A DNA stretch of 64,000 nucleotides from an uncultured Draconibacterium sp. (GTDB lineage Bacteria > Bacteroidota > Bacteroidia > Bacteroidales > Prolixibacteraceae), in the NCBI RefSeq assembly GCF_963675585.1, contig NZ_OY776414.1, forward strand, positions 3,699,001 through 3,763,000. Reading direction: 5' to 3'. Numbering within the stretch: position 1 is the stretch's first letter; the number at the start of each line of letters is the position of its first letter. This document shows, piece by piece, positions 10,009-35,921 of the stretch. Below the pieces are notes generated by a model, which was not told the DNA's origin, did no database searches, and saw only the letters and a list, made by a program, of their open reading frames with translations. Position numbers and translations under genes: made by a program.

Positions 10009-10150
10009 AGCGGAAAGCCGGCTGCCAGCCATTTAAAAAGTATTCAGTCGCAGTATACAATAAAGTAACTCGTGGCTTGTGGCTCGCAACTTTAGTTAAA
10101 AGTTATCCGTTTGCAGTCGGGAGAATAAATTGTGAAGCTTTTCTGTACAG

Positions 10151-10249
10151 AGCGAGAAACGAGACTCCCCGTCTGAATGGCGCAGCCGGGCAGGCCTGTC
10201 TGAATGGCGCAGCCGGGCAGGGAACTCGCGACCCCGACCTTGGCAAGGT
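10151..10249 (-). pseudogene. Orphan tRNA-Gly 3' part, copy A1 (T arm interrupted)
   Basis: Matches the last 45 bases of the intact tRNA-Gly (anticodon stem 5' edge through discriminator base), but the T loop carries a 54-bp insert made of two 27-bp repeats (core CTGAATGGCGCAGCCGGG on the plus strand). There is no 5' half, so it cannot form a tRNA. Its first base overlaps the stop codon of the GIY-YIG gene. Confidence 0.88.
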
Positions 10250-10506
10250 TAATTCAATCCTAAAATTTTTTTTAACCGCCTTTTACCTGCTGATGTTTTA
10301 TAATATTTTTCCTTTTTACGAGTATCGGACAAACTACCAACCTTGTCTTGATATAATAATCGCCATGGAATATGACCTTTCGTAAATTTTGACTTTCCTT
10401 TATTGTGCTGCTTCAACCTTTCGACAGGATTGGCAGATAAACCAACATACCAAACCCCATCATTTTCACTCTGAATCAGGTAAACGAAGTAATCGGGAGA
10501 TACCAT
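10249..10506 (-). CDS. GIY-YIG nuclease, array A copy 1
   Basis: An 85-residue single-domain protein of the UvrC/URI-type GIY-YIG superfamily. The GIY equivalent is VYL (residues 8-10), YIG is YVG (20-22), the catalytic Arg is Arg30 and the metal-binding Glu is Glu66 in DTRKKEKYY. It would nick or cut DNA, and could act like a free-standing homing endonuclease. This distal copy differs from the other two at residues such as Asn15, Val28 and Asp54 and is probably the oldest. The stop TAA abuts the orphan tRNA part, so the gene ends exactly where tRNA sequence begins. Confidence 0.8.
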   Translation of the reverse strand: MVSPDYFVYLIQSENDGVWYVGLSANPVERLKQHNKGKSKFTKGHIPWRLLYQDKVGSLSDTRKKEKYYKTSAGKRRLKKILGLN

Positions 10507-10586
10507 AAACTTTATTAAAAGTTAAGCTCATTAATGTACAACAAAAAAAAGCTTCACAAAATAAATTGTGAAGCTTTTCTGTACAG

Positions 10587-10685
10587 AGCGAGAAACGAGA
10601 CTCCCCGTCTGAATGGCGCAGCCGGGCAGGCCTGTCTGAATGGCGCAGCCGGGCAGGGAACTCGCGACCCCGACCTTGGCAAGGT
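10587..10685 (-). pseudogene. Orphan tRNA-Gly 3' part, copy A2
   Basis: Same structure as the copy at 10151-10249: 45 bases of tRNA-Gly from the anticodon stem to the discriminator base, with the 2 x 27-bp insert in the T loop. It is followed on the minus strand by terminator hairpin 10549-10576. Confidence 0.88.
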
Positions 10686-10942
10686 TAATTCAATCCTAAA
10701 ATTTTTTTTAACCGCCTTTTACCTGCTGATGTTTTATAATATTTTTCCTTTTTACGAGTATCGGACAAACTACCAACCTTCTCTTGATATAATAATCGCC
10801 ATGGAATATGACCTTTCGTAAATTTTGACTTTCCTTTATTGTGCTGCTTCAACCTTTCGGCAGGATTGGCAGATAAACCAACATACCAAATCCCATCTTT
10901 TTCACTCTGAATCAGGTAAACGAAGTAATCGGGAGATACCAT
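10685..10942 (-). CDS. GIY-YIG nuclease, array A copy 2
   Basis: 85 residues, same motifs as copy 1 (VYL, YVG, Arg30, Glu66). It has Ile18 where the others have Val, and shares Ala28 and Glu54 with copy 3. It is intact. The gene sits 30-odd bases after a strong tRNA terminator, so expression may depend on read-through from the tRNA operon or on a promoter inside the short spacer; I cannot identify one. Confidence 0.8.
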   Translation of the reverse strand: MVSPDYFVYLIQSEKDGIWYVGLSANPAERLKQHNKGKSKFTKGHIPWRLLYQEKVGSLSDTRKKEKYYKTSAGKRRLKKILGLN

Positions 10943-11021
10943 AAACTTTATTAAAAGTTAAGCTCATTAATGTACAACAAAAAAAGCTTCACAAAATAAA
11001 TTGTGAAGCTTTTCTGTACAG

Positions 11022-11120
11022 AGCGAGAAACGAGACTCCCCGTCTGAATGGCGCAGCCGGGCAGGCCTGTCTGAATGGCGCAGCTGGGCAGGGAACTCGC
11101 GACCCCGACCTTGGCAAGGT
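11022..11120 (-). pseudogene. Orphan tRNA-Gly 3' part, copy A3
   Basis: Third orphan part, with the same 54-bp T-loop insert; one base differs in the insert (CAGCTGGG for CAGCCGGG). It is followed by terminator hairpin 10984-11011. Confidence 0.88.
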
Positions 11121-11377
11121 TAATCCAATCCTAAAATTTTTTTTAACCGCCTTTTACCTGCTGATGTTTTATAATATTTTTCCTTTTTACGAGTATCGGA
11201 CAAACTACCAACCTTCTCTTGATATAATAATCGCCATGGAATATGACCTTTCGTAAATTTTGACTTTCCTTTATTGTGCTGCTTCAACCTTTCGGCAGGA
11301 TTGGCAGATAAACCAACATACCAAACCCCATCTTTTTCACTCTGAATCAGGTAAACGAAGTAATCGGGAGATACCAT
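11120..11377 (-). CDS. GIY-YIG nuclease, array A copy 3 (next to intact tRNA-Gly)
   Basis: 85 residues ending in ILGLD where the other copies end in ILGLN, with intact GIY-YIG motifs (VYL 8-10, YVG 20-22, Arg30, Glu66). This copy directly follows the intact tRNA-Gly and its terminator on the minus strand, so if units are added at the tRNA it is the youngest. Its stop codon touches the next orphan tRNA part. The tRNA-like flanks argue that it belongs to a mobile unit, not to nucleotide-excision repair. Confidence 0.8.
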   Translation of the reverse strand: MVSPDYFVYLIQSEKDGVWYVGLSANPAERLKQHNKGKSKFTKGHIPWRLLYQEKVGSLSDTRKKEKYYKTSAGKRRLKKILGLD

Positions 11378-11410
11378 AAACTTTATTAAAAGTTAAGCTC
11401 ATTAATGTAC

Positions 11411-11446
11411 AACAAAAAAAGCTTCACAAAATAAATTGTGAAGCTT
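11411..11446 (-). terminator. Terminator of the Gly-Leu-Gly tRNA operon
   Basis: Perfect 11-bp hairpin, AAGCTTCACAA with its complement (11419-11429 and 11436-11446), 6-base loop, followed on the minus strand by a run of T (11411-11418). It starts 11 bases after the tRNA-Gly 3' end. The same hairpin recurs in each array unit at 10984-11011 and 10549-10576, and half of it remains at the array edge. Confidence 0.85.
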
Positions 11447-11456
11447 TTCTGTACAG

Positions 11457-11529
11457 AGCGAGAAACGAGACTCGAACTCGCGACCCCGACCTTGGCAAGG
11501 TCGTGCTCTACCAACTGAGCTATTCTCGC
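11457..11529 (-). tRNA. tRNA-Gly (GCC), promoter-distal copy
   Basis: 73-base cloverleaf: 7-bp acceptor GCGAGAA/TTCTCGC, anticodon loop TTGCCAA in stem CGACC/GGTCG, T loop TTCGAGT, discriminator T, no encoded CCA. It is identical to the copy at 11664-11736. Its 3' part recurs as orphan copies in array A, so its own 3' half may have been supplied by the element. Confidence 0.95.
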
Positions 11530-11534
11530 AGTAG

Positions 11535-34556: not shown

Positions 34557-34561
34557 AGTAT

Positions 34562-34822
34562 CTATTCCTTTTGTGAATGTTTATCAATCCACATTTTAAC
34601 CTTTGCCGGATTTTTAAAACCCTTTAACTTTCTTTCCATTAAAATTGCCTCAGTACGTGTTTCGAATGCTACTGAATAGAGCAATTCCCAGGGACCTTTA
34701 CCTTTGGTATATCTACTTTGTCCGGAATTGTGCCGAACTAATCTTTTGGCAACATCTCCTGTCTGACCAATATACAATTTCCCGGTTTCCTCCGATTCTA
34801 ATATGTAAGTGTAAAATGGCAT
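34562..34822 (-). CDS. GIY-YIG nuclease, array B copy 4
   Basis: 86 residues, identical protein. TCA Ser codon, TTA/CGG/CAC block, TAC Tyr codons: a recombinant of the patterns seen in copies 1 and 3. Confidence 0.82.
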   Translation of the reverse strand: MPFYTYILESEETGKLYIGQTGDVAKRLVRHNSGQSRYTKGKGPWELLYSVAFETRTEAILMERKLKGFKNPAKVKMWIDKHSQKE

Positions 34823-34954
34823 TTTTAAAGTAAGATACAACTTAAGCGACATAAAAAAGCCCCGAATCTCTTCGAGGCCTGTAAATTGTATAGCTTCATC
34901 TTCAAAAAGCTAACAAAAAAACCTTCCATCATACGAAGGAAGGTTTTACATTTG

Positions 34955-35002
34955 GGTGGATGATCCCGACCTGAATCGGGACGACCTCCCGAAACACAAT
35001 CC
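34955..35002 (-). pseudogene. Orphan tRNA-His 3' half, copy B5
   Basis: AAACACAATCC form, T arm replaced by the palindrome. Confidence 0.85.
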
Positions 35003-35007
35003 AGTAT

Positions 35008-35268
35008 CTATTCCTTTTGTGAATGTTTATCAATCCACATTTTAACCTTTGCCGGATTTTTAAAACCCTTTAACTTTCTTTCCATTAAAATTGCCTCAGT
35101 ACGTGTTTCGAATGCTACTGAATAGAGCAATTCCCAGGGACCTTTACCTTTGGTATATCTACTTTGTCCGGAATTATGTCGAACCAATCTTTTGGCAACA
35201 TCTCCTGTCTGACCAATATACAATTTCCCGGTTTCCTCCGATTCTAATATATAAGTATAAAATGGCAT
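35008..35268 (-). CDS. GIY-YIG nuclease, array B copy 5
   Basis: 86 residues, identical protein. Same synonymous pattern as distal copy 1 (TCA, TTG/CGA/CAT, TAT), although four units away. Confidence 0.82.
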   Translation of the reverse strand: MPFYTYILESEETGKLYIGQTGDVAKRLVRHNSGQSRYTKGKGPWELLYSVAFETRTEAILMERKLKGFKNPAKVKMWIDKHSQKE

Positions 35269-35400
35269 TTTTGAAGTAAGATACAACTTAAGCGACATAA
35301 AAAAGCCCCGAATCTCTTCGAGGCCTGTAAATTGTATAGCTTCATCTTCAAAAAGCTAACAAAAAAACCTTCCATCATACGAAGGAAGGTTTTACATTTG

Positions 35401-35448
35401 GGTGGATGATCCCGACCTGAATCGGGACGACCTCCCGAACCACAATCC
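35401..35448 (-). pseudogene. Orphan tRNA-His 3' half, copy B6
   Basis: AACCACAATCC form, T arm replaced by the palindrome. It is the orphan half nearest the intact tRNA-His. Confidence 0.85.
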
Positions 35449-35453
35449 AGTAT

Positions 35454-35714
35454 CTATTCCTTTTGTGAATGTTTATCAATCCACATTTTAACCTTTGCCG
35501 GATTTTTAAAACCCTTTAACTTTCTTTCCATTAAAATTGCCTCAGTACGTGTTTCGAATGCTACTGAATAGAGCAATTCCCAGGGACCTTTACCTTTGGT
35601 ATATCTACTTTGTCCGGAATTGTGCCGAACTAATCTTTTGGCAACATCTCCTGTCTGACCAATATACAATTTCCCGGTTTCCTCCGATTCTAATATGTAA
35701 GTGTAAAATGGCAT
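35454..35714 (-). CDS. GIY-YIG nuclease, array B copy 6 (next to intact tRNA-His)
   Basis: 86 residues, identical protein; TCA Ser codon with TTA/CGG/CAC and TAC forms. It directly follows the intact tRNA-His, its terminator and the second hairpin. If units enter at the tRNA this is the most recent copy. The T-run hairpin about 25 bases before the start codon may keep expression low. Confidence 0.82.
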   Translation of the reverse strand: MPFYTYILESEETGKLYIGQTGDVAKRLVRHNSGQSRYTKGKGPWELLYSVAFETRTEAILMERKLKGFKNPAKVKMWIDKHSQKE

Positions 35715-35806
35715 TTTTAAAGTAAGATACAACTTAAGCGACATAAAAAAGCCCCGAATCTCTTCGAGGCCTGTAAATTGTTGAGCTTCATCTTCAAAAA
35801 GCTAAC

Positions 35807-35838
35807 AAAAAAACCTTCCATCATACGAAGGAAGGTTT
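35807..35838 (-). terminator. Terminator after tRNA-His
   Basis: Arms AAACCTTCC (35811-35819) and GGAAGGTTT (35830-35838), loop of 10, T run on the minus strand. The same hairpin occurs in every array B unit. Confidence 0.8.
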
Positions 35839-35846
35839 TACATTTG

Positions 35847-35921
35847 GGTGGATGATGGGATTTGAACCCACGACCTCCGGAACCACAATCCGGCGTTCTA
35901 ACCAACTGAACTACAACCACC
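35847..35921 (-). tRNA. tRNA-His (GTG)
   Basis: 75 bases including the extra 5' G(-1) and discriminator C. Anticodon loop TTGTGGT in stem CCGGA/TCCGG, T loop TTCAAAT, D loop and T8-A9 as expected. The acceptor stem GTGGTTG/CATCCAC has one T-T mismatch (positions 5-68). The same CATCCAC is present in every orphan half, so the 3' half of the working gene matches the element. No encoded CCA. Confidence 0.93.

Follow-up and report, generated by a model that had tools for sequence, protein, structure and literature searches.

Two tandem arrays of small GIY-YIG genes stand beside tRNA genes in a stretch of 64,000 nucleotides (nt) from an uncultured Draconibacterium sp. (Bacteroidota; NCBI RefSeq assembly GCF_963675585.1, contig NZ_OY776414.1, positions 3,699,001 to 3,763,000), hereafter the window. 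These arrays are probably minimal mobile elements whose sole gene encodes a free-standing, homing-type GIY-YIG endonuclease of ∼85 amino acids (aa), and which keep the host gene whole. The case is built on comparisons of sequence, in which the anatomy of the loci, their co-orientation with the tRNA, target-specific clades, empty sites, patchy occupancy and like hairpin stubs at two tRNA-Met genes are apparent. An initial annotation of the window had proposed a small mobile-looking element made up of part of a tRNA, a terminator and a nuclease gene. Such elements were recovered at many Bacteroidota tRNA genes, the tRNA being left intact, and empty sites were found as well.

Array A occupies the minus strand, as does array B. 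Its host gene is an intact tRNA-Gly (GCC) at 11456..11529 (ARAGORN; Rfam, 68.6 bits), on the 3′ side of which a terminator-like hairpin, AAGCTTCACA..TGTGAAGCTTTTTTT, was read in the sequence at 11414..11450 (approximate bounds). Three units follow at a spacing of 435/436 base pairs (bp), each consisting of an open reading frame (ORF), a partial copy of the tRNA and a copy of the terminator-like hairpin, the last of these copies being shortened. The GIY-YIG genes, taken from the ORF list, encode 85 aa each: A1 at 11120..11377 (also matched by PF01541), A2 at 10685..10942 and A3 at 10249..10506. The partial tRNA copies, here termed stubs, were aligned at 11021..11120, 10586..10685 and 10150..10249. 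Each begins at the final base of the GIY-YIG stop codon and comprises tRNA-Gly positions 29-56, a 54-nt insert that splits the T-loop, and positions 57-74. By eye, the insert consists of two near-identical 27-nt copies. The remaining 46 nt (28+18) are 100% identical to tRNA-Gly in each unit, so that chance likeness is no serious alternative. A tRNA-Leu (TAA) and a second tRNA-Gly (GCC) lie upstream at 11534-11736, giving a Gly-Leu-Gly cluster in which the array sits on the last Gly gene only.

Array B follows an intact tRNA-His (GTG) at 35846..35920 (ARAGORN; Rfam); the His query used found no second intact tRNA-His in the genome. Two terminator-like hairpins, read in the sequence at 35744..35840 (approximate bounds), lie 3′ of the tRNA, are of host type, and are also present in an element-free relative, G007. 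The array holds six units spaced by 446/447 bp, with GIY-YIG genes from the ORF list at 35454..35711 (B1, also matched by PF01541), 35008..35265 (B2), 34562..34819 (B3), 34116..34373 (B4), 33670..33927 (B5) and 33223..33480 (B6). These ORFs are counted as 86 aa from an inner ATG; upstream ATGs would give 96 aa in five of them (in B1, from the ATG at 35744) and 123 aa in the sixth. Sequence comparison placed the tRNA-His stubs at 35400..35450, 34954..35004, 34508..34558, 34062..34112, 33616..33666 and 33169..33219, the sixth being followed by the last terminator copies to ∼33066. Each stub runs from about tRNA position 30 to the 3′ end, with the T-arm swapped for GTCCCGATTCAGGTCGGGAT, by eye a 6-bp hairpin of different sequence; in stub 1 the hairpin in place of the T-arm is given as TCCCGATTCAGGTCGGGA. 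Between units there are six synonymous and no nonsynonymous codon differences. Both arrays thus have the make-up first described (tRNA, hairpin terminator, GIY-YIG genes and partial tRNA copies, in three and six units), and their tRNA copies do extend from the anticodon stem (Gly 29, His ∼30) to the 3′ end. They are not the plain halves that had been claimed, since the T-loop or T-arm is altered.

Tandem arrays beside tRNA genes could also suggest an amplification of tRNA dosage that is useful to the host. There is a precedent in phage SegB at tRNA-Tyr, which drives such amplification according to the part of the report available (PMC13096335). However, the window's arrays and most others seen amplify a broken stub and no working tRNA, and this explanation is hardly credible.

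Proteins A and B score 48.7 and 58.8 bits against PF01541 (cut-off 22.6), and no named NCBIfam family lies above its cut-off for them. Residues Y20, G22, R30, H34, N35, E66 and K70 are invariant in 45/45 alignment rows, and among these we take the Tyr, Gly, Arg and Glu columns to be catalytic. A predicted protein model has a mean pLDDT (predicted local distance difference test) of 90.7. Among PDB entries it is matched best by UPF0213 (E 3.4e-4) and by Slx1 (from E 9e-4 upwards); the catalytic domain of I-TevI reaches only E 1.6. A protein of 85 aa leaves no room for a second domain. When protein B was used as the sole query for carriage by phages or plasmids, one weak plasmid match and two weak phage matches were returned.

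Similar loci are common at tRNA genes well beyond the window. In the same genome, five of seven small GIY-YIG loci lie at tRNAs (Gly, His, Pro-CGG, Val-GAC with three units, and Val-TAC). A small, broken GIY-YIG gene that contains an internal stop was also seen ∼300 bp past the window's right end (G000:C4:3763316-3763537), with no tRNA in the fetched stretch. Across this genome and 23 relatives, 59 of 106 gene matches lie within 500 bp of a tRNA, and all 59 are on its strand. Ten near-complete genomes of the genus place 24 of their 50 small GIY-YIG loci at tRNAs, against an expectation of ∼0.5 in 50 computed from the 43-49 tRNAs per genome.

A search of 395 Bacteroidota genomes, made with a profile of mainly tRNA-linked members (42/45 rows), gave matches in 247 genomes, a count that takes in relatives away from tRNAs. 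The best-scoring listed matches supplied 110 loci (30 given with the search, among them the Val-GAC locus of the window's own genome, and 80 fetched). A tRNA is present within 500 bp at 94 of these, always on the same strand (94 of 94), and 88 of the 94 have another partial copy of a local tRNA, nearly always the neighbouring one. A script puts the tRNA upstream in 67 of the 94 and downstream in 27, of which at least four (L124, L150, L164 and L165) really have overlapping upstream tRNAs. A Met-type query against named genomes, with 80 loci kept, found 58 near a tRNA; all 58 share its strand, and 48 stand at tRNA-Met. The Met-type hosts are mostly Bacteroidota and Balneolota, with some Cloacimonadota and KSB1, one Kerfeldbacteria record and one Woesearchaeota bin, although foreign contigs are possible in the bins behind this list. 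Several contigs end in or beside arrays; thus, draft assemblies probably undercount them.

Among units with a tRNA within 700 nt, a stub is present in 163 of 178; counted by locus, the figure is 126 of 137. Two layouts were found. In layout 1, an intact tRNA is followed by the gene and a 3′ stub; layout 2 is its mirror, in which a 5′ stub and the gene precede an intact tRNA. The mirror form was absent from the initial annotation. Layout 1 stubs mostly run to the 3′ end of the tRNA (97/119). Layout 2 stubs mostly begin at tRNA position 1-3 (35/44), and 4/44 reach the 3′ end. Inserts of at least 8 nt were placed in 108 of the 163 stubs, with positions that are approximate because the alignment misplaced some of them (e.g. 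in array B). Among the 37 layout 2 inserts, 23 come after position 20-23 (D-loop). Among the 71 of layout 1, 23 are situated 18 or 21 nt before the 3′ end (T-loop), and the others are scattered, many of them in the anticodon arm.

The altered site varies with the target. It is the T-loop or T-arm in arrays A and B and at Asn, Asp and Gly; the anticodon arm at Met, Ala and Val; and the D-loop at Arg, Leu and Ser in the mirror layout. Entry at the anticodon arm, as first put forward, is thus not supported as a general rule. At several loci the GIY-YIG gene overlaps the neighbouring tRNA copy and stops at a TAG within it. A further array, L033, holds tRNA-Val-like copies with altered anticodon loops, some with and some without GIY-YIG genes.

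Each protein lineage appears to be dedicated to a single tRNA gene or to a small set of similar ones. This was assessed on a tree of 195 domains from 86 genomes and 19 host families, with 139 of the domains labelled by tRNA. Isoacceptor labels change 61 times on the tree, compared with a mean of 110 and a minimum of 103 in 500 shuffles. When only the closest relative from a different host family is considered, the isoacceptor is shared in 53 of 139 cases (permuted mean 7.9, maximum 20), and 79 of the 139 agree in the amino acid (permuted maximum 25). Sharing across families above the permuted maxima implies that descent within families is not its sole cause. Target switches can be read from the order of the leaves, protein A falling among Arg-type members and protein B beside Pro-type members. 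A run of 22 consecutive leaves has no nearby tRNA, and we take these for conventional small GIY-YIG proteins.

Comparison with relatives shows that occupancy is patchy. At tRNA-His, the closest relative, G007, carries no element; its match to the window extends to the base immediately ahead of the first ATG in the GIY-YIG ORF. None of 19 relatives' loci has a GIY-YIG gene in the fetched stretch, a comparison of the left side only. The relative G004 has a solo stub with a like T-arm hairpin and no gene. At tRNA-Gly, two relatives carry a different GIY clade and none of the eight other loci holds the gene by profile; some of these have solo stubs or a decayed remnant. The solo altered tRNA-His or tRNA-Gly stubs that lack a nuclease gene (L233, L246 and L248) are likely remnants.

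Both flanks could be compared at a tRNA-Met gene in a genome of another genus (G210), which has five units and a right flank. The stretch has matches in 139 of 150 genomes, from which 29 other loci were fetched; all 29 have the tRNA-Met and no GIY-YIG gene. In three of these genomes (G513, G566 and G538), the left flank runs into a single tRNA-Met with a single terminator, and these are joined to the same right flank as in G210. The tRNA-Met 3′ half and terminator are shared by both sides of the comparison. The occupied form is thus the empty form plus whole units, with the stretch from tRNA 3′ half to terminator duplicated. We infer the direction of change, gain versus loss, from one occupied locus against 29 empty ones. 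The initial annotation had regarded the stub as the displaced old half of the tRNA. The data fit this view and a long duplication of the target upon insertion equally well, and the terminator copies are of host type.

Ten other loci in sister species of G210's genus carry related GIY genes, and eight of these have a complete tRNA-Met of another type next to them. A 20-nt stretch of G210's five stubs, ATATCCGCCACGGCGGACAC, is found exactly in four of the ten and as a variant in the other six, and the tRNA letters that flank it are those of each site. Because the 20-nt stretch is kept while the tRNA letters follow the site, the hairpin appears to travel with the nuclease gene. One genome, G513, is empty at its first tRNA-Met gene and occupied at its second.

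These comparisons bear on a simpler account, in which an old tRNA-GIY operon with a cellular nuclease role is inherited vertically and the stubs arise by local tandem duplication and decay. Near-identical units within arrays and terminator copies of host type speak for it. Nonetheless, simple duplication, which had been named at the outset as a way to explain the stubs, accounts for the copies within an array and fails for single-gene loci that carry a stub. The patchy occupancy and empty sites also argue against an ordinary vertical locus, as do the different GIY-YIG clades at the same tRNA within one genus (Asp and Gly), the related elements at different tRNA-Met genes, and the structured nature of many stub changes, which is unlike random decay. 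We consider this account decidedly improbable.

A related clade lies mostly in or beside protein genes; it numbers 29 loci, from 22 of the 395 genomes, and five or more of these loci are at tRNA copies. Its members are often preceded by a motif like CACCCTGTGAAATA and often have the inverse motif after the stop codon. In four loci (L262, L264, L045 and L047) the element stands between a 5′ stub and a complete dehydratase-type gene (PF16363, E 3e-88 to 2.6e-98); the stub and the regenerated 5′ end differ in L262 and are alike in L264. In L272 the element lies between a complete integrase-family gene and a repeated 3′ end, whereas the integrase-family gene is interrupted instead of kept whole at L259 and L265. 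Insertions in L263, L265, L272 and L287 fall at or near one conserved integrase-family spot (the LLGHKNV/TTMIYTHV region) in different hosts. PF00589 was found for L263, L265 and L272; L287 was assigned by eye, as were the remaining host genes of this clade. Finally, at L275, L277 and L278 a GIY-YIG ORF lies at the 5′ side of the RNase P RNA gene (RF00010), flanked by inverted repeats (identified by eye) and ahead of a conserved GAGGAAAGUCCGG.

The recurrence of this design outside tRNA genes argues against an RNA function limited to tRNA. It bears directly on the idea that the protein is a ribonuclease toxin that cuts the neighbouring tRNA, with the stub RNA as a decoy or antidote. Clades matched to their tRNA, and a stub that mimics the tRNA with one arm altered, would suit such a system. 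However, most layout 2 stubs are a 5′ part only and unable to fold as a tRNA, and close relatives of the protein sit in protein and RNase P RNA genes without a tRNA. A toxin and its decoy are very unlikely on these grounds.

The stub hairpins raise a different possibility, namely that single-stranded or cruciform hairpins are the substrate of the nuclease, with the hairpin serving as the mobile end in place of double-strand-break homing. The tRNA arm would be exchanged for a hairpin, comparable to the use of hairpins by single-strand transposases. Several observations fit. The hairpins replace tRNA arms or lie inside them, and 44 of 70 loci with inserts of at least 14 nt have folding z<-2 relative to dinucleotide shuffles, as opposed to 6 of 87 controls. 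A double hairpin in five stubs that belong to one clade and lie at tRNA-Asp and tRNA-Gly shows two-sided changes in three pairs and seven cells. The cell count was reached by none of 500 shuffles and the pair count by 174, for a structure drawn from the same five sequences that were tested; slid structures pair far worse. The palindrome TCCCGA-n-TCGGGA occurs at 45 sites in the window's own genome, compared with none for a reversed control, and is frequent in three relatives too. The clade in protein genes often has inverted repeats at its ends, and the branched-DNA nuclease Slx1 is among the nearest structures. Against this, the units lack a transposase, a genome search found the hairpins of arrays A and B only within the arrays, and the likeness to Slx1 may be a general trait of GIY-YIG proteins of this size. 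We regard a hairpin-directed element as unlikely, while giving it more weight than vertical descent or a toxin.

Other classes of element were considered and rejected. Rfam at gathering score finds only tRNAs in the window and 12 loci, and the tRNA is intact as DNA, which does not fit a group I intron or an intein. tRNA genes are landing sites of large islands that need an integrase; the 435-447 bp unit is mostly GIY-YIG ORF and too small for an integrase gene, ruling out a tyrosine-integrase island. It is likewise too small for the Y1 transposase gene of a repetitive extragenic palindrome (REP) system with its REP-associated tyrosine transposase (RAYT), and the hairpins of arrays A and B, as noted, are confined to the arrays.

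If the arrays are minimal homing-type elements, DNA cleavage, homing, the position of the cut and the role of the hairpin could be combined as follows. The nuclease would cut or nick an element-free copy of its tRNA gene, and repair from an occupied donor would copy in the nuclease gene and the hairpin. The same repair would duplicate or regenerate the tRNA part and terminator, which would render the insertion harmless. Recombination between tRNA copies may later lengthen or shorten the array. The opening of an empty tRNA gene by the nuclease and the copying in by recombination are suggested by tRNA genes that are occupied yet kept, by inherited target choice and by the growth of arrays, together with the SegB and mORF systems discussed below. 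The hairpin would most likely serve to make the stub unrecognisable to the nuclease, to tRNA processing, or to both.

Several points count against this reading. The nuclease activity on which it depends is predicted. Since the intact tRNA next to the gene is expected to retain the target, there must be some way of avoiding self-cutting. The terminators look to be of host type in both copies, so that the regenerated part need not be foreign. The right flanks of the window's arrays are unshared with relatives, so that only the left junctions are fixed, and the Met-type tree is too poorly resolved for a signal of host-to-host transfer. Of the 70 inserts, 26 have z above -2, including that of array A, which at z +0.6 is no stabler than its shuffles. 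The units of array A differ by five nonsynonymous and no synonymous codon changes, and purifying selection is therefore invisible there. The query set and the choice of top matches both favour tRNA-linked members, and as a result the fractions of loci near tRNAs are no census. Genes away from tRNAs, which had been named in advance as evidence against the idea, exist in other clades (the 22 unlabelled leaves and the clade in protein genes). In the tRNA clades they form a minority, with no tRNA in reach at 16 of the 110 phylum loci and 22 of the 80 Met-type loci, 12 of these 22 lying less than 200 nt from a contig end.

What is already known includes free-standing GIY-YIG homing endonucleases, gene-regenerating mORFs and GIY-YIG insertions in rRNA genes of the Candidate Phyla Radiation (CPR). 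The literature search, with preprints and most subscription papers outside it, returned no description of bacterial tRNA-gene elements that leave an altered stub. We entertain, at somewhat less than even chances, a new minimal class of element. An element of this class, made up of an 85-aa GIY-YIG domain and a hairpin, would recognise one arm of a particular tRNA gene and exchange it for its own hairpin in one copy, with another, intact copy of the tRNA being produced. It would have spread over most tRNA isotypes in Bacteroidota and phyla close to them, and a sister branch would do likewise in protein and structured-RNA genes. One small nuclease domain seems sufficient to occupy tRNA genes harmlessly, with target choice inherited per lineage. 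The many naturally matched nuclease-target pairs, at ∼85 aa, offer a resource for studying site choice by single-domain GIY-YIG proteins. Such elements may also account for some pseudo-tRNAs and assembly breaks at Bacteroidota tRNA loci.

By structure, the closest known proteins are UPF0213 and other conventional small GIY-YIG proteins (1zg2, 1ywl), which are single-domain and of similar size. They differ in that the 22 tree leaves taken for such proteins lie away from tRNAs. Small GIY-YIG nucleases that are specific for single strands and tied to repeats, termed Ssn, occur in Neisseria; the literature search did not return them.

By location, the CPR rRNA-gene insertions are similar in placing a GIY-YIG ORF in structured-RNA genes, unlike either intron class, and most sit at the tops or bases of stem-loops. 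They resemble the RNase P RNA insertions found here. They differ in their rRNA target, and the part of the report available describes no copy of the target gene and places the GIY-YIG protein outside homing (PMC11270868). SegB of phages T4 and T6 is a free-standing GIY-YIG homing endonuclease that lies among tRNA genes, cuts inside them at the motif RAWTSGAAC, and drives tandem amplification through recombination. The reverse complement of this motif looks like the T-loop. SegB is phage-borne and not chromosomal, and in the available portions of the two reports neither an isotype preference nor a hairpin stub is described (PMC13096335, PMC2988022).

A parallel in design is offered by the mORF elements of fungal mitochondria, in atp6 of Allomyces macrogynus and in atp6, atp9, cox2 and nad3 of Glomus. 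As far as the available text of that work extends, these also pair a free-standing endonuclease gene (GIY-YIG in Glomus atp9) with a copy of the host gene's end, the host gene being whole and its native end displaced past the nuclease gene (PMC3630166). Differences are that mORFs occupy mitochondrial protein genes, that their regenerated ends are argued to be foreign, and that within the same text no hairpin is described in the displaced piece and no tandem arrays are described (PMC3630166). The trait they share with the elements found here, a whole host gene and a second part of it past the nuclease gene, is seen at 126 of 137 tRNA loci and at the four dehydratase-type loci. The mitochondrial strategy of keeping the host gene whole would thereby be extended to bacteria and to RNA genes.

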